Source of the DNA: a virus
Length of the DNA: 24,462 bases
IMG/VR virus record: IMGVR_UViG_3300028596_000065
Coordinates: 1 to 24,462 of that record
Reading direction: 5' to 3' (one strand)
Positions 2,177 to 24,426 of this stretch are shown here, piece by piece (position 1 is the first letter of the stretch; every line of letters starts with the position of its first letter). A model generated the notes under the pieces. The model had not been told where the DNA came from, searched no databases, and was given only the letters and a program-made list of their open reading frames with translations. The translations under genes and the position numbers were made by a program.

Positions 2177-3445
2177 TCAAGCCCCGCTTGATGCGGGGCT
2201 TGGTTGGCCGAGTTGAGTGATGGGTATGTTCTGCGACTGGCACGTGGCCACGTCGCCGCCGGGAAGCGGTGGCGCGTTGTCCAGACGACGAAGTTCGTTT
2301 CGTGTTCTCAGTCCCTTGTCGACCATTGCTCCCATGAACGCGGCGCGTGCAGCAGAGTCACCGCGCAACAAACCTTCGAGGTTGTGCTCGGCGTGGTACC
2401 TGCCTGCTTCAGCGGGCTTCACCAGCCAGCGGTGAATGGCCTGCTCCCACCAGTCGAGGTATGGCGCCAAGGTGTACTGAAGGAAACCCAAGTTCTGTTG
2501 CTCAATGCCCGAGCCCCAGCTGGTGCTTTTCTCAACGTCGCCCACCAAGTGCGGCGGCACACCGAAGAACCGGGCCAGCTCGCTTACCTGGAACTTGCGA
2601 GATGCCATGGTCTCGGCATCCTGGGGGCTCACACCTATGGACTGGGTGGTGAAACCCGCCTCGAGGATCCACAAGCGCTTGCGGACGGGGCCGCCGGCGA
2701 TCTCCTTGAAGTTCTCCTCAATCTGCCCCCGCTGCTCCTTGCTGAGCACCTTGTCACCGGTCATGAGAATCTGCGGCGACTTGGCTCCGTTGCCGTAGAA
2801 GTCGCGCTGCTGGTCCTCCATCGCCACTGCTACGCCCGCAGTCTTGGCCGAGAAGGCGATCGGCGACAGGCCGACCAGGCCGTTGAACCCGAACCCCTTC
2901 AGATGGAAGATTTCACTCTGCTTGAAATTGGCGTACTCCGTGTCGCGCCGGTACCGGTAAACGATCTTCCCGCCTTCTAGCCGCGGGTCCATGTTGACCG
3001 ACATCAGCGGGATCAGGCTGACCACGTCGCCAGCACCGTTGCGCTCGATCAAGGCGTAGGCGTTGCCGTAGAAACACAGCTGCATCGTCATCGCCGTGCG
3101 GAACTCAACGGCGGTCATGAATCGGTTAGGGCTGTAACGCAGCAGTCGAGCCAGCGGGTTGTCGAGGCCGACCTTCTGACGATCGCCGTCCTTCGTCTCG
3201 AACACGTCGAGCGGCAGGGTTGCAGTAACAGCAGAGATCAGCCGCACGCAAGCGAACACGGTCGAGATCTGCAGCGCTCGCTCGTCGGTGATCACCGAGT
3301 CACCCACGGTGCCTGTCGCAGAAACGGGACCGCCCTGCGAGCCCTTTTCCGGGGTTGCCAGCCGGCCGCCGACGAAGAAGCTGGCCAGGCGCGCCCAAAA
3401 TGGGCTCCGGGTGCGCAAGTCAATGCTGTAGTCGGTATCGGCCAT
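2177..3445 (-). CDS. HK97-family phage portal protein
   Basis: The 422-aa product is the dodecameric ring at the capsid vertex through which DNA enters and leaves and on which the head-tail connector is built. Family features seen are the N-terminal ALQISTVFACVRLISAVTATLPL segment, the FYGNAYALIERNGAGDVVSLIPL segment at about 127-150, and SELARFFGVPPHLVGDVEKST at about 290-310, followed by a Pro-rich C terminus. Its ATG shares one base with the terL stop (TAATG), so translation is probably coupled. The order terL, portal, protease, capsid is the usual HK97 arrangement. Confidence 0.95.
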   Translation of the reverse strand: MADTDYSIDLRTRSPFWARLASFFVGGRLATPEKGSQGGPVSATGTVGDSVITDERALQISTVFACVRLISAVTATLPLDVFETKDGDRQKVGLDNPLARLLRYSPNRFMTAVEFRTAMTMQLCFYGNAYALIERNGAGDVVSLIPLMSVNMDPRLEGGKIVYRYRRDTEYANFKQSEIFHLKGFGFNGLVGLSPIAFSAKTAGVAVAMEDQQRDFYGNGAKSPQILMTGDKVLSKEQRGQIEENFKEIAGGPVRKRLWILEAGFTTQSIGVSPQDAETMASRKFQVSELARFFGVPPHLVGDVEKSTSWGSGIEQQNLGFLQYTLAPYLDWWEQAIHRWLVKPAEAGRYHAEHNLEGLLRGDSAARAAFMGAMVDKGLRTRNELRRLDNAPPLPGGDVATCQSQNIPITQLGQPSPASSGA

Positions 3446-12539: not shown

Positions 12540-12713
12540 CTAAGAGGGCTTGTGGTCGGCCTGAAAGCGGCCTTTGGAAAGCACCTGGATCTGGTACTGG
12601 CGCGACTGAGGGACAGACTCCCCCCACATGGTTACCGCGCTGGGCTGGATCCCCAGGGCATCCGCCAGCTTCTTCTTGCTACCGAAAAAATCGGCTACTT
12701 CACGCGTTTTCAT
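12540..12713 (-). CDS. cro: Cro-like repressor (57 aa)
   Basis: The product reads MKTREVADFFGSKKKLADAL followed by GIQPSAVTMWGESVPQSRQY and IQVLSKGRFQADHKPS. Residues 12-30 are the helix-turn-helix (KKKLADALGIQPSAVTMWG), and the QSRQYQIQVLSKGRF segment is typical of lambda-class Cro proteins. The ATG at 12713 has GAGG 7 nt upstream; an out-of-frame ATG at 12720 ends at once. It is the first gene of the PR operon, divergent from cI, with the operators between. Length is a little under lambda Cro (66 aa). It should bind the same operators and shut down cI, then early transcription. Confidence 0.88.
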   Translation of the reverse strand: MKTREVADFFGSKKKLADALGIQPSAVTMWGESVPQSRQYQIQVLSKGRFQADHKPS

Positions 12714-12822: not shown

Positions 12823-13479
12823 ATGGAAAGACATGAGCGAATAGCCAAAGCCATTGCGGCGAGCGGCAAGAAAAAGGGCGAGATCGCGACTGAATGTGGC
12901 GTCGCGAACTCAGCTGTTACTCAATGGATCTCAGGCGAAAGTAAAAGCCTAAGACCAGAGAACCTCTACGCCCTGGCGAAGGCGACCGGGTTCCGCGCTG
13001 AATGGCTTGCCATCGGGGAAGGGCCTGAAATCGATAGCCCCGAGCCGAGTAATGTTGCTCCGGCAATGCAACCGAAAATGTCCTATCGCTATCCAGTCAT
13101 AAGCTGGGTCGCTGCAGGTGCCTGGGCTGAGGCTGTGGAGCCCTTCCCGCCTGGATTCTCTGACCGCTATGAGATCTCTGACTACAACTCGAAAGGTGTT
13201 GCGTTCTGGCTGGAAGTCAAAGGCGACTCAATGACATCGCCAGTAGGTACCAGCATCACCGAAGGAATGATGATCCTGGTCGATACCGAGGCCGAAGCGA
13301 TCTCCGGAAAGCTCGTAGTAGCAAAGCTTTCTGATAGCAACGAAGCCACGTTCAAGAAGCTGGTGGAGGATGGTGGACGGCGCTTCCTGAAGCCTTTGAA
13401 CCCGGCATATCCGGTTGAGATGTGCGCAGAAAATTGTCGCATCGTGGGCGTGGTGGTTCGCGCAATGATGAAGCTCTGA
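12823..13479 (+). CDS. cI: CI-like repressor with S24 autocleavage domain
   Basis: The 218-aa product has an N-terminal helix-turn-helix (about 16-40: KKKGEIATECGVANSAVTQW) and a C-terminal LexA/CI S24 peptidase. The cleavage bond is Ala98-Gly99 (VAAGAWAE), the nucleophile Ser136 (VKGDSMTSP) and the general base Lys178 (ATFKKL). RecA filaments should trigger self-cleavage and induction. It is divergent from cro. There is no ribosome site before ATG at 12823 and the nearest promoter-like TAATAT is at 12810-12815, so the message from PRM may be leaderless as in lambda. A strong terminator follows. Confidence 0.93.
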   Translation: MERHERIAKAIAASGKKKGEIATECGVANSAVTQWISGESKSLRPENLYALAKATGFRAEWLAIGEGPEIDSPEPSNVAPAMQPKMSYRYPVISWVAAGAWAEAVEPFPPGFSDRYEISDYNSKGVAFWLEVKGDSMTSPVGTSITEGMMILVDTEAEAISGKLVVAKLSDSNEATFKKLVEDGGRRFLKPLNPAYPVEMCAENCRIVGVVVRAMMKL

Positions 13480-15153: not shown

Positions 15154-15537
15154 ATGGAAACGATCACCTGCGGCTCATGGATTGGTCAGCTCGGAAAGGC
15201 GCTGGCACCCCGTGAACTTGAAGCACTGTTGTGGGTGGCCCAAGGGCTCACCACCAAAGAAATCGCCCGCCAGATGGCGGTCACTCCAGGCACCGTGGCC
15301 AATCGCATCGAGGCCGCGCTTTTCAAACTGGAAGCCGGTCGCCGCATCGAGGCCGTCACCAAGGCCATGCGCCAACAGATCATCAGCCCGCTGTGCATCG
15401 CCCTGGCCGGGTTGATGGCTATGCACGCCGTCATGGGCGATGCCGACCCTATGCGCCGCGACCGCCGCGTGCCTGAGCGACGTATTGCCCAGGTCCGAAT
15501 CATCCGCAAGGCCGAATCGTTCGACCTGCACGCCTGA
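15154..15537 (+). CDS. LuxR-type HTH protein with a hydrophobic C-terminal segment
   Basis: The 127-aa product has a GerE/LuxR-type helix-turn-helix at about 16-66: LAPRELEALLWVAQGLTTKE, then IARQMAVTPGTVANRIEAAL. Residues 75-94 (QQIISPLCIALAGLMAMHAV) are hydrophobic and could be a membrane helix, followed by a very basic stretch (MRRDRRVPERR). There is no receiver or autoinducer domain. I start at ATG 15154 with GAGGA 5-6 nt upstream; the frame opens earlier, at 15097. It may regulate host or phage genes; membrane tethering would be unusual and is inferred. Confidence 0.8.
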   Translation: METITCGSWIGQLGKALAPRELEALLWVAQGLTTKEIARQMAVTPGTVANRIEAALFKLEAGRRIEAVTKAMRQQIISPLCIALAGLMAMHAVMGDADPMRRDRRVPERRIAQVRIIRKAESFDLHA

Positions 15538-15559
15538 CCCCTGCCCCGAGGACTTCAAT

Positions 15560-15829
15560 ATGCATTCAGCTATCCAAGCTCGCCGGGATGGCCTGGCCGA
15601 TCTGCGCGCTCGCGCCAATCTCTCCACCGCTGACTTTTACGCCAAGATCGGGCGCCCGACGCCGGTGCAGCAGATCCGCTACCAGGTCGTCACTAAGGCC
15701 AAGGCCTACCACATAGTGGAACTGTCGACCGGTAAGACCAAAGGCTTTTGCTTCAGCTATCGAGCAGCGGTGAACTTCGCCCAGGCGCTGGAGGCAGCTG
15801 CAACGCGCAAGCTGGTTGGGCGGCAATGA
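15560..15829 (+). CDS. Small early-left phage protein
   Basis: The 89-aa product starts MHSAIQARRDGLADLRARAN and has a PTPVQQIRYQVVTKAKAYHI strand-rich middle and an Ala-rich C-terminal helix. The ATG at 15560 has GAGGA upstream; the frame is open from 15440, inside the previous gene, but has no other good start. The stop overlaps the next start by 4 bp (ATGA). No family is recognised. Confidence 0.75.
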   Translation: MHSAIQARRDGLADLRARANLSTADFYAKIGRPTPVQQIRYQVVTKAKAYHIVELSTGKTKGFCFSYRAAVNFAQALEAAATRKLVGRQ

Positions 15830-16284
15830 GCAAGCGCAAGCCGCACAACATGCGTGCCCGCATGGAGCGGACCTGCAGAGCGCTGGTCAACGCCAACTAC
15901 GCAGCTGTGGTGAATATAGACCCGAGCGGCCAGCAGGTGCTGATGAACTGGAAGAACTGCAGGCAGATCTGCATGCGCCAGGTCGTCGACGCCGTGTGCG
16001 ACACCCCCCACCGCTGGACCATCTACCTCAGTGTCATGTGCCAGAAGCCGAACGGCGAGCAGTACTGCAAATCGGTCGAGATCGCACCGCAGGGCAACTA
16101 CCTAGCTTCGCACCTCACAGACATAATCGAAGCCACCTACACCGACCTGCGGGCTCAGGCCAATACAAACCACCTGGTGGCGGCCGGATGGATCGCCATA
16201 CCCGCGGACATCACGCTGGATGAAGCGCAGGCCGCGAAGGTCTTTGCGGCCATGGGTGTTTGGAGCAAGCATATAGCGATATAG
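15826..16284 (+). CDS. Early-left phage protein, family not recognised
   Basis: The 152-aa product starts MSKRKPHNMRARMERTCRAL, basic, and continues with VVNIDPSGQQVLMNWKNCRQ, several spaced Cys (NCRQICMRQVVDAVC and MCQKPNGEQYC) and a C-terminal helical part with ITLDEAQAAKVFAAMGVWSK. The Cys residues are not in a standard zinc pattern. The ATGA overlap with the previous gene fixes the start at 15826. Function unknown. Confidence 0.78.
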   Translation: MSKRKPHNMRARMERTCRALVNANYAAVVNIDPSGQQVLMNWKNCRQICMRQVVDAVCDTPHRWTIYLSVMCQKPNGEQYCKSVEIAPQGNYLASHLTDIIEATYTDLRAQANTNHLVAAGWIAIPADITLDEAQAAKVFAAMGVWSKHIAI

Positions 16285-16322
16285 AGACTCGATTGATTTG
16301 TGTTACTTACCTCAAGGCGCCC

Positions 16323-16919
16323 CTAAACATTAACGGTAAAACGACTTATTGACTTCATGTCTAGGTTTTCAACATTGAATCGCCCCCAATACCGGTGCAA
16401 TGATCGATACAGTTCGTAGACATATTTATGATAGTCGGCATAAAAATCGGAAAGATCTATTGCACCCGCAGTCCTATCGGTAATTGCATGGGCGGTGAAG
16501 TTCCTGACTTTTCTAAACTTCTCTCCGAAATCAGTAGGAATTTCCACGTCATAGTAGGAAATGTCGTTTTCCCACCCTTCTCCTTGCCCGGACTGCAATC
16601 GATCAACAAAGCCTCTAAAAACACGAGATGCTTCAGCTTGAAAGAGCTTGTCCTTCTTTACAGATCCGGGTCGCCCAGAGAAACCCTCATCACTACCTTG
16701 ATCTCGCATGAAACATGCAACTGACAACTCATAAAGATGGTGCAGGAACGAAGTATAGCTACTGAATAGCTGAACTTGCTCAACAGCTGACAGCTCCGAC
16801 ACAATTTGCTTTTGGCCCAACCGCACAAACGCGTCATGGCTGGCTTTCATGAGGAAGCTTTCATGATGAATAGTAGCTATTAGAGCGCTGTCGAGTTCCC
16901 CATCTGAGAAGTTCTTCAT
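16323..16919 (-). CDS. HEPN-motif protein, moron/defence candidate
   Basis: The 198-aa product is mostly alpha-helical and carries RNFTAH at residues 139-144, an exact RNxxxH motif as found in HEPN ribonucleases and toxins (Rx4-6H, with a polar residue after Arg). The preceding helices (EQVQLFSSYTSFLHHLYELS, about 47-66) and the following DFYADYHKYVYELYRSLHR fit the four-helix HEPN bundle. ATG 16919 has AAGGAG 6 nt upstream; a longer frame to 17261 is not supported. It is lower in GC than its neighbours and lies on the strand opposite to the PL operon, so it is probably expressed separately, in the lysogen. No antitoxin-like partner is directly adjacent on the same strand. An RNase or abortive-infection role is inferred. 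Confidence 0.75.
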   Translation of the reverse strand: MKNFSDGELDSALIATIHHESFLMKASHDAFVRLGQKQIVSELSAVEQVQLFSSYTSFLHHLYELSVACFMRDQGSDEGFSGRPGSVKKDKLFQAEASRVFRGFVDRLQSGQGEGWENDISYYDVEIPTDFGEKFRKVRNFTAHAITDRTAGAIDLSDFYADYHKYVYELYRSLHRYWGRFNVENLDMKSISRFTVNV

Positions 16920-17030
16920 TGACATCTCCTTAATCCGGTAAATTCCGACCACACGTAATAACCCATCCCAACCCAAATTGCCACTATGCCGCATCCGGCC
17001 ACGGAGGGCGGCGCATGCATGGAGAAAGCC

Positions 17031-17792
17031 ATGGCGAAGTTCTACTACCAGATCAAGGGTCGTCGCCCGGCAACAAGCGCATATGGCGAGACTGAGTGGG
17101 CCTGGCCACCAGTGTTCAGCGGAATGGTCGAGGCGACCGACCGCAAGGCAGCGAAGGCCGCGGTCGAGGATCAATACGAACGCAAGTTCCCATCGCGCGT
17201 GCTGCGCAAGGACATGGAAGCGCACGAGTACTTGCTGCACATCCAGCCGATCGACGAGCACGACACCTACCTACTGGGTCGCTTCGAAAACAGACCGTGC
17301 AAGGAGTGCGGCACCGTCTTCAAATTGATCGACAAGTACAACGACCCGCACACCGAAACGAAAAGCCACGACTACTGCACCGAGGCGTGCCAGGCGGCCG
17401 CTAAGTTCCGTGACCTATCGGAGTTCCGCCTAGCCAGCGAGGGTCGGTCGCCGCCGGTGATCTACCAGGTGCGCCAGAAGTCTACCGAGCGGGTCTATGT
17501 CGGTCAGACAACCCAGCCATTCACACTGCGCTGGTGGCAGCACCTCAGCAATCCAACTGGCTGCAAGTTCCACTCAGCGCTGGGCAGCACCGACATCACC
17601 GACTGGGAATTCTCCGTGATCGAAGTGATTACCTACCCGGACCACTGCAATAATCGAGCGGCCTACATCAGTCAACGCGAAGGCCACTGGATCGAGGCTC
17701 TCTCGGCGGTAGATACAGGATTCAACACTGTTCGCCCTGCCGGCATTGCCGATCAAGCCCAGGTACTCCTGCCGCTTGCAGACCTGGCCTAA
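17031..17792 (+). CDS. GIY-YIG nuclease with an N-terminal zinc-finger region
   Basis: The 253-aa product has a C-terminal GIY-YIG domain: IYQVRQKSTERVYVGQTTQP (GIY at about 144, YVG at about 156), an Arg at about 167 in TLRWWQHL, and Glu217/Glu222 in REGHWIEAL. Before it lies a four-Cys module, Cys90-x2-Cys93 (CKECG) and Cys116/Cys120 (CTEAC), and an N-terminal domain starting MAKFYYQIKGRRP. The start is uncertain; ATG 17031 has GGAG 6 nt upstream, while ATG 17019 is also in frame. It could be a homing-type nuclease or a phage endonuclease acting on host or competitor DNA. Confidence 0.85.
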   Translation: MAKFYYQIKGRRPATSAYGETEWAWPPVFSGMVEATDRKAAKAAVEDQYERKFPSRVLRKDMEAHEYLLHIQPIDEHDTYLLGRFENRPCKECGTVFKLIDKYNDPHTETKSHDYCTEACQAAAKFRDLSEFRLASEGRSPPVIYQVRQKSTERVYVGQTTQPFTLRWWQHLSNPTGCKFHSALGSTDITDWEFSVIEVITYPDHCNNRAAYISQREGHWIEALSAVDTGFNTVRPAGIADQAQVLLPLADLA

Positions 17793-17924
17793 TCATCTGG
17801 CGCTACCAGCCAGTGGCTTCCCCTACCCCCCCGATAAGGCCTCCCCAGCTAGGGCGTCTCAATGAACAATGCCATGGAGCACGTTGGCACGGGAAACAAA
17901 CGATACTGCCTTAAATGATCTGAC

Positions 17925-18722
17925 TCATTTGTTTGAAGATTTAGCAAGACTCCCTCTACTTTTCACCCCCATCTGGACCCTCTCCGCCAACCGTTGGAAA
18001 TAGGGAGTTTTTGAAATATCCGAAGAAATAAACATAAGCCGAACGCCATGCGCTTGAAACGGAGCTTTCGCTGTATTGCTCACTTTATCACCGGCATACA
18101 TAGAAATTTTCAAACCCAGTAGGGAAAATGAGTAAACGGTGTCACCTTCCACCACAGAACAGGTCGGCAGTGACATCATTGCACGCGTGTCAGAATGCTC
18201 ATTTAAATTAACAAGTATAAAAACATCATCAAGGTCACACATACCGAGTAAAAACAGTCGAAATCTCTCTAGGAGATCTGCATCAACACTTGCTTTGTGA
18301 GTTGTTTTGCTTCCCCAATCCCAAACCTGAGCGCGCCAAAAGACACTCACAACAAAGTAAAACACACTAGATACGACCTCAGTAGGAAGCGCTCTGCTGT
18401 CATACATAGCAAATTTTTCACCTCTCCCTAAAAATGCCCTGGCAATCAAAATATCAAGCAATGGGAAACTATTTTTAGTTGCCCACAGCGACCCCATTCG
18501 CCGCTCGCCATTTTTCGAAAAAAGGTTCTCGCACTCGGAGCAAAGCAATGGTTGTTTGATCTGTTTGTCAGTACTAAAAGCTGATTTTTCATCAAACTGT
18601 ATCTGGACTGGTGAACTGTTACCTATTGCGCCATTTCCTCGTACATGCACGTATGCAGCGGCAGGTAGCAAGTGACTGTTGATTAGTTTTCCTTTTTCAA
18701 CTTTGCACAGCGCACAAATCAT
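17925..18722 (-). CDS. CxxC/CxxC protein with SHxxP motif, moron candidate
   Basis: The 265-aa product starts MICALCKVEKGKLINSHLLP, so Cys3-x2-Cys6 is followed by Ser16-His17-x-x-Pro20, and a second pair Cys61-x2-Cys64-Glu lies in LLCSECENLFSKNGE. This combination resembles zinc-bound, HNH-like N-terminal modules of uncharacterised bacterial proteins, but catalytic residues are not evident. The C-terminal 180 residues are hydrophobic-rich and have no domain I recognise. The GTG at 18734 is also in frame; I prefer ATG 18722. It is clearly lower in GC than the operon and runs against it. Function unknown; a defence or exclusion role is possible. Confidence 0.75.
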   Translation of the reverse strand: MICALCKVEKGKLINSHLLPAAAYVHVRGNGAIGNSSPVQIQFDEKSAFSTDKQIKQPLLCSECENLFSKNGERRMGSLWATKNSFPLLDILIARAFLGRGEKFAMYDSRALPTEVVSSVFYFVVSVFWRAQVWDWGSKTTHKASVDADLLERFRLFLLGMCDLDDVFILVNLNEHSDTRAMMSLPTCSVVEGDTVYSFSLLGLKISMYAGDKVSNTAKAPFQAHGVRLMFISSDISKTPYFQRLAERVQMGVKSRGSLAKSSNK

Positions 18723-18774
18723 TTTCAGCCCCACAGCATTAATTATGAAGTGAATATACCGACGAGATCATCTT

Positions 18775-19698
18775 ATGCATACTGCTATCGACCTGTTCGC
18801 CGGCCTCGGCGGATGGAGCACAGGCGCACGCGCCGCAGGCGTCCAGGTTCTCTGGGCGGCAAACCACTGGCCTGAGGCCGTGAAATGGCACGCAGCCAAC
18901 CACAAGGAAACTGAGCACGTCTGCCAAGACCTGCACCAGGCCCGATGGGAGCAGGTACCAAAGCATGATCTGCTTCTGGCCTCGCCGTGCTGTCAGGGTC
19001 ATTCGAAAGCCCGGGGCAAGGCATCAGGCAACCCGCAACACGATTCGTCGCGCTCAACAGCGTGGGCAGTCGTGTCGGCGCTGGAGTTTCATCGACCAGA
19101 AGCGGCACTGGTGGAGAACGTCGAGGAGTTCACCGACTGGGCGCTGTACCCGGCCTGGGTATCGGCTGTGCAGGCTCTCGGTTACCAGGTCTCGCCGCAC
19201 GTTGTGGACTGCGCCGATCTGGGCGTGCCTCAGCATCGCGTCAGGCTGTTCCTGGTCCTGACCCGCAGCAAAGCACCACTGATGCTTGAGCTGCACCGAC
19301 ACCAGCATGTGCCGGCCGCCAGCTTCCTCGACTTCGACACAGGTAAGTGGACTGCCATCGAGAAACCAGGCCGTGCCCAGGCGACGCTGAATCGCGTGCG
19401 CAATGGTCGGGCGCGCTTTGGTGACCGGTTCATAATGCCCTACTACGGCAAAGGCTCGGGCACCACCGGGCGCGACATCAACCGCCCGATCGGCACCATC
19501 ACGACCCTGGACCGTTGGGCTCTGGTCGATGGCGGCCGCATGCGAATGCTCAGCGCCAACGAGGCCCTGGCTGCGCAGTCATTCCCGGCCGACACCCTCC
19601 GCCCGGACAACCACCGGCTAACCATGCACATGGCCGGCAATGCAGTGCCGCCGCTGGCCGGCCAGCGCGTTATTGAGGCTCTGTTAAAAGCGGCCTAG
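18775..19698 (+). CDS. DNA (cytosine-5) methyltransferase, solitary
   Basis: The 307-aa product carries the C5-MTase motifs in order: I (AIDLFAGLGGWSTGA, residues 4-18), IV (ASPCCQGHS, with catalytic Cys73; the usual PPCQ is PCCQ here), VI (ENV at 114-116), VIII (GVPQHRVRLF, 150-159), a short target-recognition region (about 165-240), and IX/X (GTITTLDRW and GNAVPPLAGQRV). No restriction enzyme partner is beside it, so it is more likely to protect phage DNA from host restriction or to mark it. The intergenic distance to the divergent 17925-18722 gene is only 52 bp, and its ribosome site is weak. Confidence 0.93.
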   Translation: MHTAIDLFAGLGGWSTGARAAGVQVLWAANHWPEAVKWHAANHKETEHVCQDLHQARWEQVPKHDLLLASPCCQGHSKARGKASGNPQHDSSRSTAWAVVSALEFHRPEAALVENVEEFTDWALYPAWVSAVQALGYQVSPHVVDCADLGVPQHRVRLFLVLTRSKAPLMLELHRHQHVPAASFLDFDTGKWTAIEKPGRAQATLNRVRNGRARFGDRFIMPYYGKGSGTTGRDINRPIGTITTLDRWALVDGGRMRMLSANEALAAQSFPADTLRPDNHRLTMHMAGNAVPPLAGQRVIEALLKAA

Positions 19699-21965: not shown

Positions 21966-22364
21966 TCACTTGCTCGCTTGGGTCTTTGACTCCACTGCTT
22001 TGTTTGCATACTCAAACATTTGCATTGGTGACATTGCGCCCATCGATACAAGCATTATTAGCACACCAAACAATGCAACCCCACCCGCAAGCCAAACACT
22101 TTTTGCTTGTATGTAACTAAGAACAGCACCCCACAAAAACGCCACGCTACCTAAAATAAAGAAAAACGTTTTACCCGAAGGGGATAGCCAATTACAAAAA
22201 AGCAATGAAGAAACCGCAAAAAGCAACAAGACTGCCGGCAAAAAATACCAAGCATTATTCATTGGAGCAGATGCTGGTTCAAAATATTTCTTAGGATCCA
22301 TACCATGGTTTTCCAAGAAACCTTTAATCTCTTCTGGAGTCCCTTCAGCTTGCCCTAGCTTCAT
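21966..22364 (-). CDS. Three-span membrane protein, second gene of a low-GC pair
   Basis: The 132-aa product has a polar N terminus with GTPEEIKGFLENHGMDPKKY (about 8-27) and three predicted membrane helices at about 39-59 (WYFLPAVLLLFAVSSLLFCN), 66-85 and 90-110, then a short charged tail. It starts 2 bp after the stop of the upstream gene, so the two are one operon. The hydrophobic core without transporter motifs would suit a pore or membrane-disturbing effector, which is inference. Low GC and reversed orientation mark it as an acquired cassette. Confidence 0.75.
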   Translation of the reverse strand: MKLGQAEGTPEEIKGFLENHGMDPKKYFEPASAPMNNAWYFLPAVLLLFAVSSLLFCNWLSPSGKTFFFILGSVAFLWGAVLSYIQAKSVWLAGGVALFGVLIMLVSMGAMSPMQMFEYANKAVESKTQASK

Positions 22365-22366
22365 GC

Positions 22367-22759
22367 TCAGCCCCTAAATTTTCGTGGAACTATCCGATTA
22401 ACATCGGCCTTTGCCGACTCTTCGGTCCACTCACTAGGACTTCCATCCTTAATTATAACTACTCCATTAGACTCCATTATTATATTGGTGCCTTTAAAAT
22501 CAAATCCATCAAGATTTCCGCCAAATGCGTGCTGACGGATTTTTGAAAGCGCTTTATTTACGGATGACACATCCATTTTATAGACATCTTCATTACCATC
22601 ATAAGCATCAAACTCAAAAAGCATTACTGCCCCACCTTGCTTTGCAGGGTAAACAACGCATTTAACACCTAGCCCTGGCTTCATGAAGGTAGACAACAAC
22701 CTTCTGAAGTTATTTATATAGGCCTGCATCGTGCTTCGCTGAACTTTAGTCTCGCTCAC
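22367..22759 (-). CDS. Soluble protein, first gene of the low-GC pair
   Basis: The 130-aa product starts from GTG 22759 (GGGAG 5 nt upstream). It is predicted soluble and mixed alpha/beta: MSETKVQRSTMQAYINNFRR helix, then VKCVVYPAKQGGAVMLFEFD and a NIIMESNGVVIIKDGSPSEW strand-rich part. No catalytic motif or known domain is visible. It is followed at 2 bp by the membrane protein gene. The soluble-plus-membrane pair on the lysogen strand recalls RexA/RexB in layout only, not in sequence. Confidence 0.72.
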   Translation of the reverse strand: MSETKVQRSTMQAYINNFRRLLSTFMKPGLGVKCVVYPAKQGGAVMLFEFDAYDGNEDVYKMDVSSVNKALSKIRQHAFGGNLDGFDFKGTNIIMESNGVVIIKDGSPSEWTEESAKADVNRIVPRKFRG

Positions 22760-23165: not shown

Positions 23166-24227
23166 ATGCGCCCCCGGAAGAATGAAAACAGGGACTTGCC
23201 GCCGGGGATGTACCGGCGCAAGCGCAGCAGTAAAAGCAAGAAAAGCCCGAAAAAAGAGTGGATCAGTTACATCTACCTAGACAAATCAGGCAAGCCAATC
23301 CCCCTTGGCACCGACCTGAACCTAGCCAGATTGAAGTGGGCCGAACTGGAAGCCAAGGAGAAGCCGCGCGATCTCCTCCAAATGAAGTCAGTCTTCGATC
23401 GATATGAACGAGACATCATCCCCAAGAAAGCGCCACGCACGCAAAAAGACAACCTGGCGGAGCTTCGACAGCTTCGGCCGTTCTTCGACGGCGCCCCCAT
23501 AGACGCCATCACGCCGTCACTTGTCGCTCAGTACAGAGATGCGCGCTCGGCCCCTGTCCGGGCGAACAGGGAAATCGCTCTCCTATCTCACATCTACAAC
23601 ATGGCGCGCGAGTGGGGCCTATCTACCAAGGAAAACCCGTGCCAGGGTGTACGGAAGAACAAGGAGAAGCCGCGCGACTTCTATGCAAATGATTCGGTCT
23701 GGAAAGCCGTATATGCCAAAGCGGTGGATGAATTGAGGGTAGCCATGGATTTGGCGTATCTGACGGGCCAGCGTCCAGCGGACGTACTGGTGATGAGGAA
23801 GGACGACATCGAGGACAACGCTCTCGGTGTGACGCAGAAGAAGACCCACAAGAAGCTGCGGATCATGCTTGAAGTAGACGGAGCGGAAAGCGGCCTTGGC
23901 GTCCTCATCAAAGAGATCCTGAAGAGAAACGAAGCGCACACGTCACCGTACCTGATCTTGACGGACGGTGGCCAGCGGGTGACCGCGTCGATGCTTCGGC
24001 GCCGCTGGGATGATGCTCGGGAGGAGGCGGTGAAGGAAGCGACAGCCTCTGGCGACCAGGCCCTGGCCGGCCGCATCAGTCAGTTCCAGTTCCGCGACAT
24101 ACGCCCCAAAGCTGCATCGGAAATCACTGATGTGGAACACGCCAGCCTGCTGCTTGGACACACTAAAGGCGACATCACTGAACGGGTTTACCGGCGCGTA
24201 GGAGCCCTGGCGAAACCCACCAAGTAG
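23166..24227 (+). CDS. int: Prophage integrase (tyrosine recombinase)
   Basis: The 353-aa product has a Lys/Arg-rich N terminus (about 1-65; MYRRKRSSKSKKSPKKEWIS) for arm-site binding, a core-binding domain (about 70-165, with PSLVAQYRDARSAPVRANRE), and a catalytic domain with Arg203 (TGQRPADVL), Lys229/230, Arg313 in QFRDIRPKA, His332 (LLGHT) and Tyr342 (ERVYRR). The first His of the usual HxxR box is Arg310 here, as in several phage integrases. It lies next to the tRNA-Ser gene and its start follows the DUF4224 gene directly, so it is the enzyme of this prophage's attachment site. Confidence 0.95.
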   Translation: MRPRKNENRDLPPGMYRRKRSSKSKKSPKKEWISYIYLDKSGKPIPLGTDLNLARLKWAELEAKEKPRDLLQMKSVFDRYERDIIPKKAPRTQKDNLAELRQLRPFFDGAPIDAITPSLVAQYRDARSAPVRANREIALLSHIYNMAREWGLSTKENPCQGVRKNKEKPRDFYANDSVWKAVYAKAVDELRVAMDLAYLTGQRPADVLVMRKDDIEDNALGVTQKKTHKKLRIMLEVDGAESGLGVLIKEILKRNEAHTSPYLILTDGGQRVTASMLRRRWDDAREEAVKEATASGDQALAGRISQFQFRDIRPKAASEITDVEHASLLLGHTKGDITERVYRRVGALAKPTK

Positions 24228-24338: not shown

Positions 24339-24386
24339 TGGCGGAAGCGTAGAGATTCGAACTCTAGGATAGTTGCCCATCGACGG
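24339..24386. other. Probable attachment site core (prophage end) in the 3' half of tRNA-Ser
   Basis: Tyrosine integrases of temperate phages usually recombine in the 3' half of a tRNA gene, and int lies 112 bp from this 3' end. The exact core needs the other end of the prophage, which is outside the window, so the limits given are approximate. Confidence 0.5.
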
Positions 24387-24426
24387 TTTTCAAGACCGTT
24401 GCCTTAAACCACTCGGCCACGCTTCC
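24339..24426 (-). tRNA. tRNA-Ser (anticodon UGA)
   Basis: The minus strand begins GGAAGCGTGGCCGAGTGGTT, and the anticodon arm ACGGT-CTTGAAA-ACCGT gives anticodon UGA. A long variable arm (GATGGGCAACTATC) identifies a class II Ser tRNA. The T arm AGAGTTCGAATCTCT is intact, the acceptor stem pairs fully (GGAAGCG/CGCTTCC), and the 3' GCCA is encoded. The gene is complete, so phage insertion rebuilt its 3' end. Its 3' end faces the integrase. Confidence 0.95.

Follow-up and report, generated by a model that had tools for sequence, protein, structure and literature searches.

Can a single small gene, lying in the early-left region of a temperate, Pseudomonas-type phage with its coding strand opposed to the surrounding operon, defend the lysogen against other phages on its own? 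The question is raised by positions 16,323 to 16,919 of a 24,462-nucleotide stretch of viral DNA (IMG/VR record IMGVR_UViG_3300028596_000065, positions 1 to 24,462; hereafter, the window), where an initial annotation, made from the letters alone, had proposed a defense moron encoding a HEPN ribonuclease. The reading that we favor, with a probability of about 0.68, is that this gene encodes a stand-alone HEPN endoribonuclease, carried as a moron in an early-left defense hotspot, and that it guards against superinfection.

Gene, Composition, and Orientation

The gene (16,323 to 16,919, minus strand, stop codon included) is an open reading frame (ORF) of 198 amino acids, starting with an ATG at 16,919 to 16,917. 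A Shine-Dalgarno sequence, AAGGAG, can be read on the same strand at 16,926 to 16,931, 6 nt 5' of this ATG. Compared with prophage relatives of 63–71% amino-acid identity, synonymous change is saturated (pS ~0.9) while pN is only 0.17–0.31, so that the protein appears to be under purifying selection. Judged by these sequence features, the ORF is a real gene and not a chance one. Its GC content is 44.6% (GC3 44%), against 60–61% (GC3 76–78%) for both flanking phage genes, a difference that had been correctly noticed at the outset. The plus-strand early-left genes tested, from cI via the methylase gene to int, range from 55 to 64% GC, and 42–44% GC is also found in three other minus-strand early-left genes (17,925 to 18,734, 21,966 to 22,364, and 22,367 to 22,759).

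The strand of the lysogeny and early-left block is set by a CI-like repressor gene (12,823 to 13,479, plus strand; phrog_4, 2e-50), and a tyrosine integrase gene lies at the far end of the block (23,166 to 24,227, plus strand; phrog_1). A small Cro-like gene (12,540 to 12,713) is on the minus strand, as are the antirepressor, terminase, and capsid genes. Since the plus strand carries cI, int, and the early-left genes alike, the HEPN gene, being on the minus strand, is antisense to the cI/early-left operon. The initial annotation had placed it on the lysogen-type strand, which has to be reversed, the direction being that of the Cro-like, terminase, and capsid genes; similarly, its description as lying within the early-left operon is right as to position, but not as to operon membership. 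The immediate neighbors are a phage gene on the 3' side, convergent with the HEPN gene (15,748 to 16,284, plus strand), and, on the other side, a divergent gene for a GIY-YIG domain protein (16,986 to 17,792, plus strand; PF01541, 6.6e-08).

Conservation of the Motif

The HEPN proposal was founded on the sequence RNFTAH (R139 to H144; codons at 16,488 to 16,505, minus strand). Taken alone, this motif is weak evidence, as R[NDH]xxxH arises in 7% of shuffled versions of the protein. This frequency, together with the non-significant E-values of the structure comparisons described below, speaks for a chance motif in an unrelated helical phage protein, a reading that the comparison with homologues brings close to nil. 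These homologues were collected using the pattern F[LIV]HHLYE[FL] and tblastn, the RN motif playing no part, and the scan of 84,980 genomes yielded 29 homologue loci. R139, N140, and H144 are invariant in 30/30 aligned homologues, with identities of 24–70%, and because these sequences were not found via the RN motif, RNFTAH counts as a HEPN motif. H19, E20, Y55, F58, R136, R149, F159, H164, and F194 are likewise invariant in this alignment. The same is true of E64, the acidic residue of helix 2, at the end of the stretch H60-H-L-Y-E64 (codons at 16,728 to 16,742, minus strand); the invariance of HHLYE is partly by construction, as it served as the seed of the genome scan. An extra Pseudomonas copy, recovered by a profile search, has LHLYE instead of HHLYE, and retains RNKVAGH.

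All 30 aligned sequences carry RNx(3,4)H, that is, Rx4-6H with a polar residue (N, D, or H) after the arginine. Eight members, among them each of the four Pseudomonas-type prophage copies, have the spacing Rx4H and the other 22 have Rx5H, a split that corresponds to a single branch of the tree (support 99/98). HEPN proteins with an RNx(3,4)H-type motif are metal-independent endoribonucleases, usually dimers, and we infer RNase activity and dimerization for the window protein as well. In some HEPN families, such as MtlR, the motif has been lost and RNA is probably bound but not cleaved (PMC3710099), which is the precedent for a HEPN fold without RNase activity, acting as an RNA-binding regulator of the prophage or of the host. 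Because the catalytic R, N, and H have stayed unchanged across more than 70% divergence, a non-catalytic regulator of this kind is very improbable here.

Predicted Fold

The AlphaFold2 model of the window protein had a pLDDT of 89.5, and that of a Methylomonas homologue reached 92.3. In line with the helical protein initially assumed, the window model is nearly all helix (residues 7–40, 45–74, 82–109, 131–143, and 156–178). R139 and N140 are close to the end of helix 131–143, and H144 starts the following loop; E64 is within helix 2, an acidic residue being present there in the models; and helix 82–109 forms an insert between HEPN helices 2 and 3. HEPN proteins are described as having their motif at a helix end and loop start, an acidic residue in helix 2, and an extra helix between helices 2 and 3 (PMC3710099). 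The structure prediction that had been recommended as a check thus returned a bundle of helices in which the motif falls at the helix-3/loop junction and an invariant acid lies in helix 2, and the motif is predicted to sit where HEPN RNases have theirs. The suggestion of a sensor-fused protein is not supported, as the 198 amino acids make up one helical domain and one inserted helix.

When the model of the Methylomonas homologue was compared with the PDB using Foldseek, 12 of the 50 matches listed were HEPN structures (HepT/HEPN toxins and 3jrt, an integron HEPN protein), with E-values of at least 2. The 11 highest target-normalized TM-scores among these 50 matches (0.45–0.61) all belonged to HepT/HEPN toxins, and 3jrt ranked second by E-value. 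With the window protein's own model, HEPN structures were absent among the 50 matches listed, and nothing significant was found in the PDB or in BFVD, the best E-values across models being 0.5–2. We take the enrichment of HEPN structures in the TM-scores as support for the predicted fold, and the E-values as a caveat.

Assignment to the Bxe_C0808 Family

The window protein had zero matches in Pfam, including PF07751 (AbiF/AbiD, Abi_2), PHROG, PADLOC, and NCBIfam, and the 29 homologues gave nothing coherent against Pfam. A sequence search of the PDB with the family profile was also without a match, so that 3jrt, which shares the HEPN fold, and has in common with one family member an integron setting, is not linked to the family at the sequence level. 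The PF18734 (AbiU2) model matched none of the 30 family members, although AbiU2 has a HEPN motif of the RNxxxAH form, and hhalign against the AbiU2 profile aligned the motif region alone, weakly (pairwise P 0.005; reversed control 0.086).

The family could be recognized through a homologue on chromosome 3 of Paraburkholderia xenovorans LB400 (L033; 839,894 to 840,496), which overlaps by 4 bp an upstream HEPN_AbiU2 gene (5.8e-17), the sole PF18734 match in this 9.7-Mb genome. Table 1 of Anantharaman et al. (2013; PMC3710099) contains a HEPN family named Bxe_C0808, with a conserved Rx4-6H and an operon with AbiU2. Because genome, chromosome letter, and AbiU2 operon all agree, the LB400 homologue is almost certainly Bxe_C0808 itself. 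The window protein aligns with this exemplar, with full-length homology at ~25–29% identity and the RNx(3,4)H motif in common; the exemplar differs in its AbiU2 operon and its Rx5H spacing, whereas members of the window clade stand alone, are carried by phages, and have Rx4H. A full-text literature search for the tag Bxe_C0808 found only PMC3710099, and no experiment on the family was found in the literature searched. The family is, therefore, a known prediction, made in 2013 from one AbiU2 operon, and the window gene is a phage-borne solo member of it and not a new kind of system; what the window adds is its occurrence in temperate phages as a gene on its own. Annotation pipelines miss the family because searches of Pfam, NCBIfam, PHROGs, and PADLOC gave no model of it.

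The invariance of the motif in 30 homologues, its position in the predicted fold, the HEPN toxins heading the TM-scores, and the match to Bxe_C0808 together exclude in practice the chance motif in an unrelated protein. RNFTAH is, on the same sequence comparisons, predicted to be a true HEPN catalytic motif, as had first been proposed.

Spread of the Family

Bxe_C0808-family genes are rare and scattered: they occur in 3/399 Pseudomonas and 2/300 Burkholderiales genomes (each count including the seed genome), with additional copies in Acidobacteriota and Thermodesulfobacteriota. Among viral contigs, homologues were found at 100% (L001, a short contig of another data set), 71% (L002), 67% (L005), and 28% identity (L006). 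Two further homologues are on plasmids, of Bradyrhizobium and P. syringae, and the family is also present in another tailed phage and in an integron-type array. The array is that of Vreelandella lionensis (L011, 2250 to 3666), where attC-like sites are found at 2250 to 2347 and 2934 to 3032, and the HEPN gene follows the second. The preceding cassette gene (2361 to 2939) has no assigned function. The integron cassette was considered as a general carrier of the family and rejected, as attC-like sites clearly flank the L011 copy only, with one more near L021.

Search for a Partner

Rather than a defense gene acting alone, the window gene might be the RNase toxin of a toxin–antitoxin (addiction) system, with an antitoxin located elsewhere (an RNA, a protein acting in trans, or a neighboring phage protein), serving prophage maintenance or stress dormancy. 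Toxins are often carried by integron cassettes. HEPN proteins are commonly toxins of such systems (PMC3710099, PMC7641770), the Paraburkholderia copy is paired with AbiU2, itself a HEPN protein, and the Bradyrhizobium copy is located 5 bp 3' of a SEC-C/TPR gene. HepT of the HEPN/MNT system (5yep, 7bxo; PMC7641770) provides the top TM-score matches among those listed for the homologue's model and has its motif at the same position.

The resemblance to HepT stops there, as the window protein has no sequence match to the HepT model, contains the extra helix 82–109, and has no MNT nucleotidyltransferase gene adjoining it, the neighbors being the phage gene and the GIY-YIG gene. No AbiU2 gene is found beside the window gene either. 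A search with Rfam over 15,500 to 19,000 found no RNA, and hence neither an RNA antitoxin nor an AbiF-type regulatory RNA. The absence of an adjoining antitoxin, asserted from the start, was borne out in this region. All-against-all BLAST across the family revealed no conserved neighbor except in near-identical copies and in the AbiU2 pairing. AbiU2 as an obligatory partner was also rejected: LB400 served as the positive case, and AbiU2 was absent from eight other host genomes, including the one that holds the closest relative from a bacterial genome (L007). In view of these results, and of the defense-type genes in the slots of sister prophages (see below), the toxin–antitoxin reading, although the main rival, is unlikely. 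Proteins with sub-threshold similarity to Cthe2314 or RiboL-PSP adjoin the P. syringae and Massilia copies, and the fact that a few copies lie beside a weakly HEPN-like or repeat-bearing protein suggests an effector whose partners, if it has any, are exchangeable.

On the Bradyrhizobium plasmid pBBta01 (L003, 5830 to 8603), a 245-aa protein with N-terminal CxxC/H motifs, the SEC-C/TPR protein, and the HEPN homologue are encoded close together, beside caspase-like and TIR genes, and this trio looks like a three-gene defense operon.

A Variable Slot in Sister Prophages

The case for a stand-alone defense gene is strengthened by its location. The 15,748–16,284 gene is the anchor of a variable slot, bounded on the other side by the GIY-YIG gene, and slot contents were read beside relatives of this anchor gene in other viral contigs. 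One such slot (L061) holds, in antisense, a gene for a 420-aa AriA-like (PARIS) ATPase (PADLOC AriA, 1.6e-39) and a gene of 297 amino acids; another (L064) holds, also in antisense, a gene for a RelA_SpoT protein (PF04607, 5.2e-16; PADLOC PDC-S33, 1.5e-06). In a third (L063), the antisense gene is DUF2971-like, at an E-value of 0.018, below the cut-off. The phage of L002 carries a gene for a DUF6602/NucC-like (PD-DExK) nuclease antisense to its phage genes.

The HEPN gene thus fills a slot in which relatives keep known or suspected defense genes, which is an association and not a proof. Since sister viruses keep anti-virus genes there, the window gene probably serves to shield its host against competing viruses; the defense moron initially proposed is, in this sense, well supported by context, given the AriA-like and RelA/SpoT genes. 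Being solo, phage-borne, and in a slot common to AriA-like and RelA/SpoT genes, it is a ready candidate for a one-gene defense test, and the slot offers a simple route to more defense genes.

Two slot proteins may be described further. The 297-aa partner of the AriA-like protein (within L061, 5794 to 7937, minus strand) has no Pfam or PADLOC match and is possibly a divergent AriB. The RelA_SpoT protein (L064, 5592 to 6728, minus strand) has a C-terminal coiled-coil-like part and resembles single-gene defenses of the toxSAS/CapRel type.

Proposed Mode of Action

In the lysogen, the HEPN protein would probably be expressed from a promoter of its own, with the operon on the other strand, and would be harmless through its low level or a missing trigger. 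Upon superinfection, the predicted RNase, which, as with other HEPN RNases, is probably a homodimer, would cleave tRNA or mRNA, and the resulting shutdown or dormancy would stop the superinfecting phage. When the prophage itself is induced, strong early-left transcription would run antisense through the HEPN gene, lowering its expression and limiting self-harm. Two points count against this explanation: a solo RNase would require some unseen control, and a promoter scan 5' of the HEPN gene gave no good sigma-70 candidate. A stronger version, in which one small protein both senses the phage and cuts RNA without a partner, antisense early-left transcription provides the self-protection, and the slot acts as a general switch for exchangeable defense genes, is rather unlikely.

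A related arrangement is that of Tha, a defense effector encoded by an S. aureus prophage, which is a protein of ~300 amino acids with an extra N-terminal part and a C-terminal HEPN domain (PMC11087260). The tha gene is in sense in the cI operon and its inhibitor gene, ith, is antisense, an antisense layout that switches Tha off (PMC11087260). Both cases involve a prophage-encoded HEPN protein and an antisense ('noncontiguous') cI-operon layout tying expression to lysogeny, but the window protein is a 198-aa single domain, the HEPN gene itself is the one in antisense, and no inhibitor is apparent. Such a layout makes the avoidance by prophages of their own defenses testable in a Pseudomonas setting.

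Other Features of the Window

Further minus-strand genes of the early-left region were observed. The gene at 17,925 to 18,734 (269 aa, GC 43.5%), antisense to the operon, encodes CxxC pairs near the N terminus, has only weak PHROG matches (phrog_19960, 6.9e-07), and is likely another moron. Near the excisionase/integrase end, the antisense pair at 21,966 to 22,364 and 22,367 to 22,759 (minus strand, GC 42%) constitutes a candidate two-gene moron; one of the two products is membrane-protein-like, and its companion has a match to phrog_18061 (1.4e-14), a family of unknown function. Finally, a tRNA-Ser (TGA) gene at 24,339 to 24,426 (minus strand) adjoins the integrase gene and is likely to be the attachment site.
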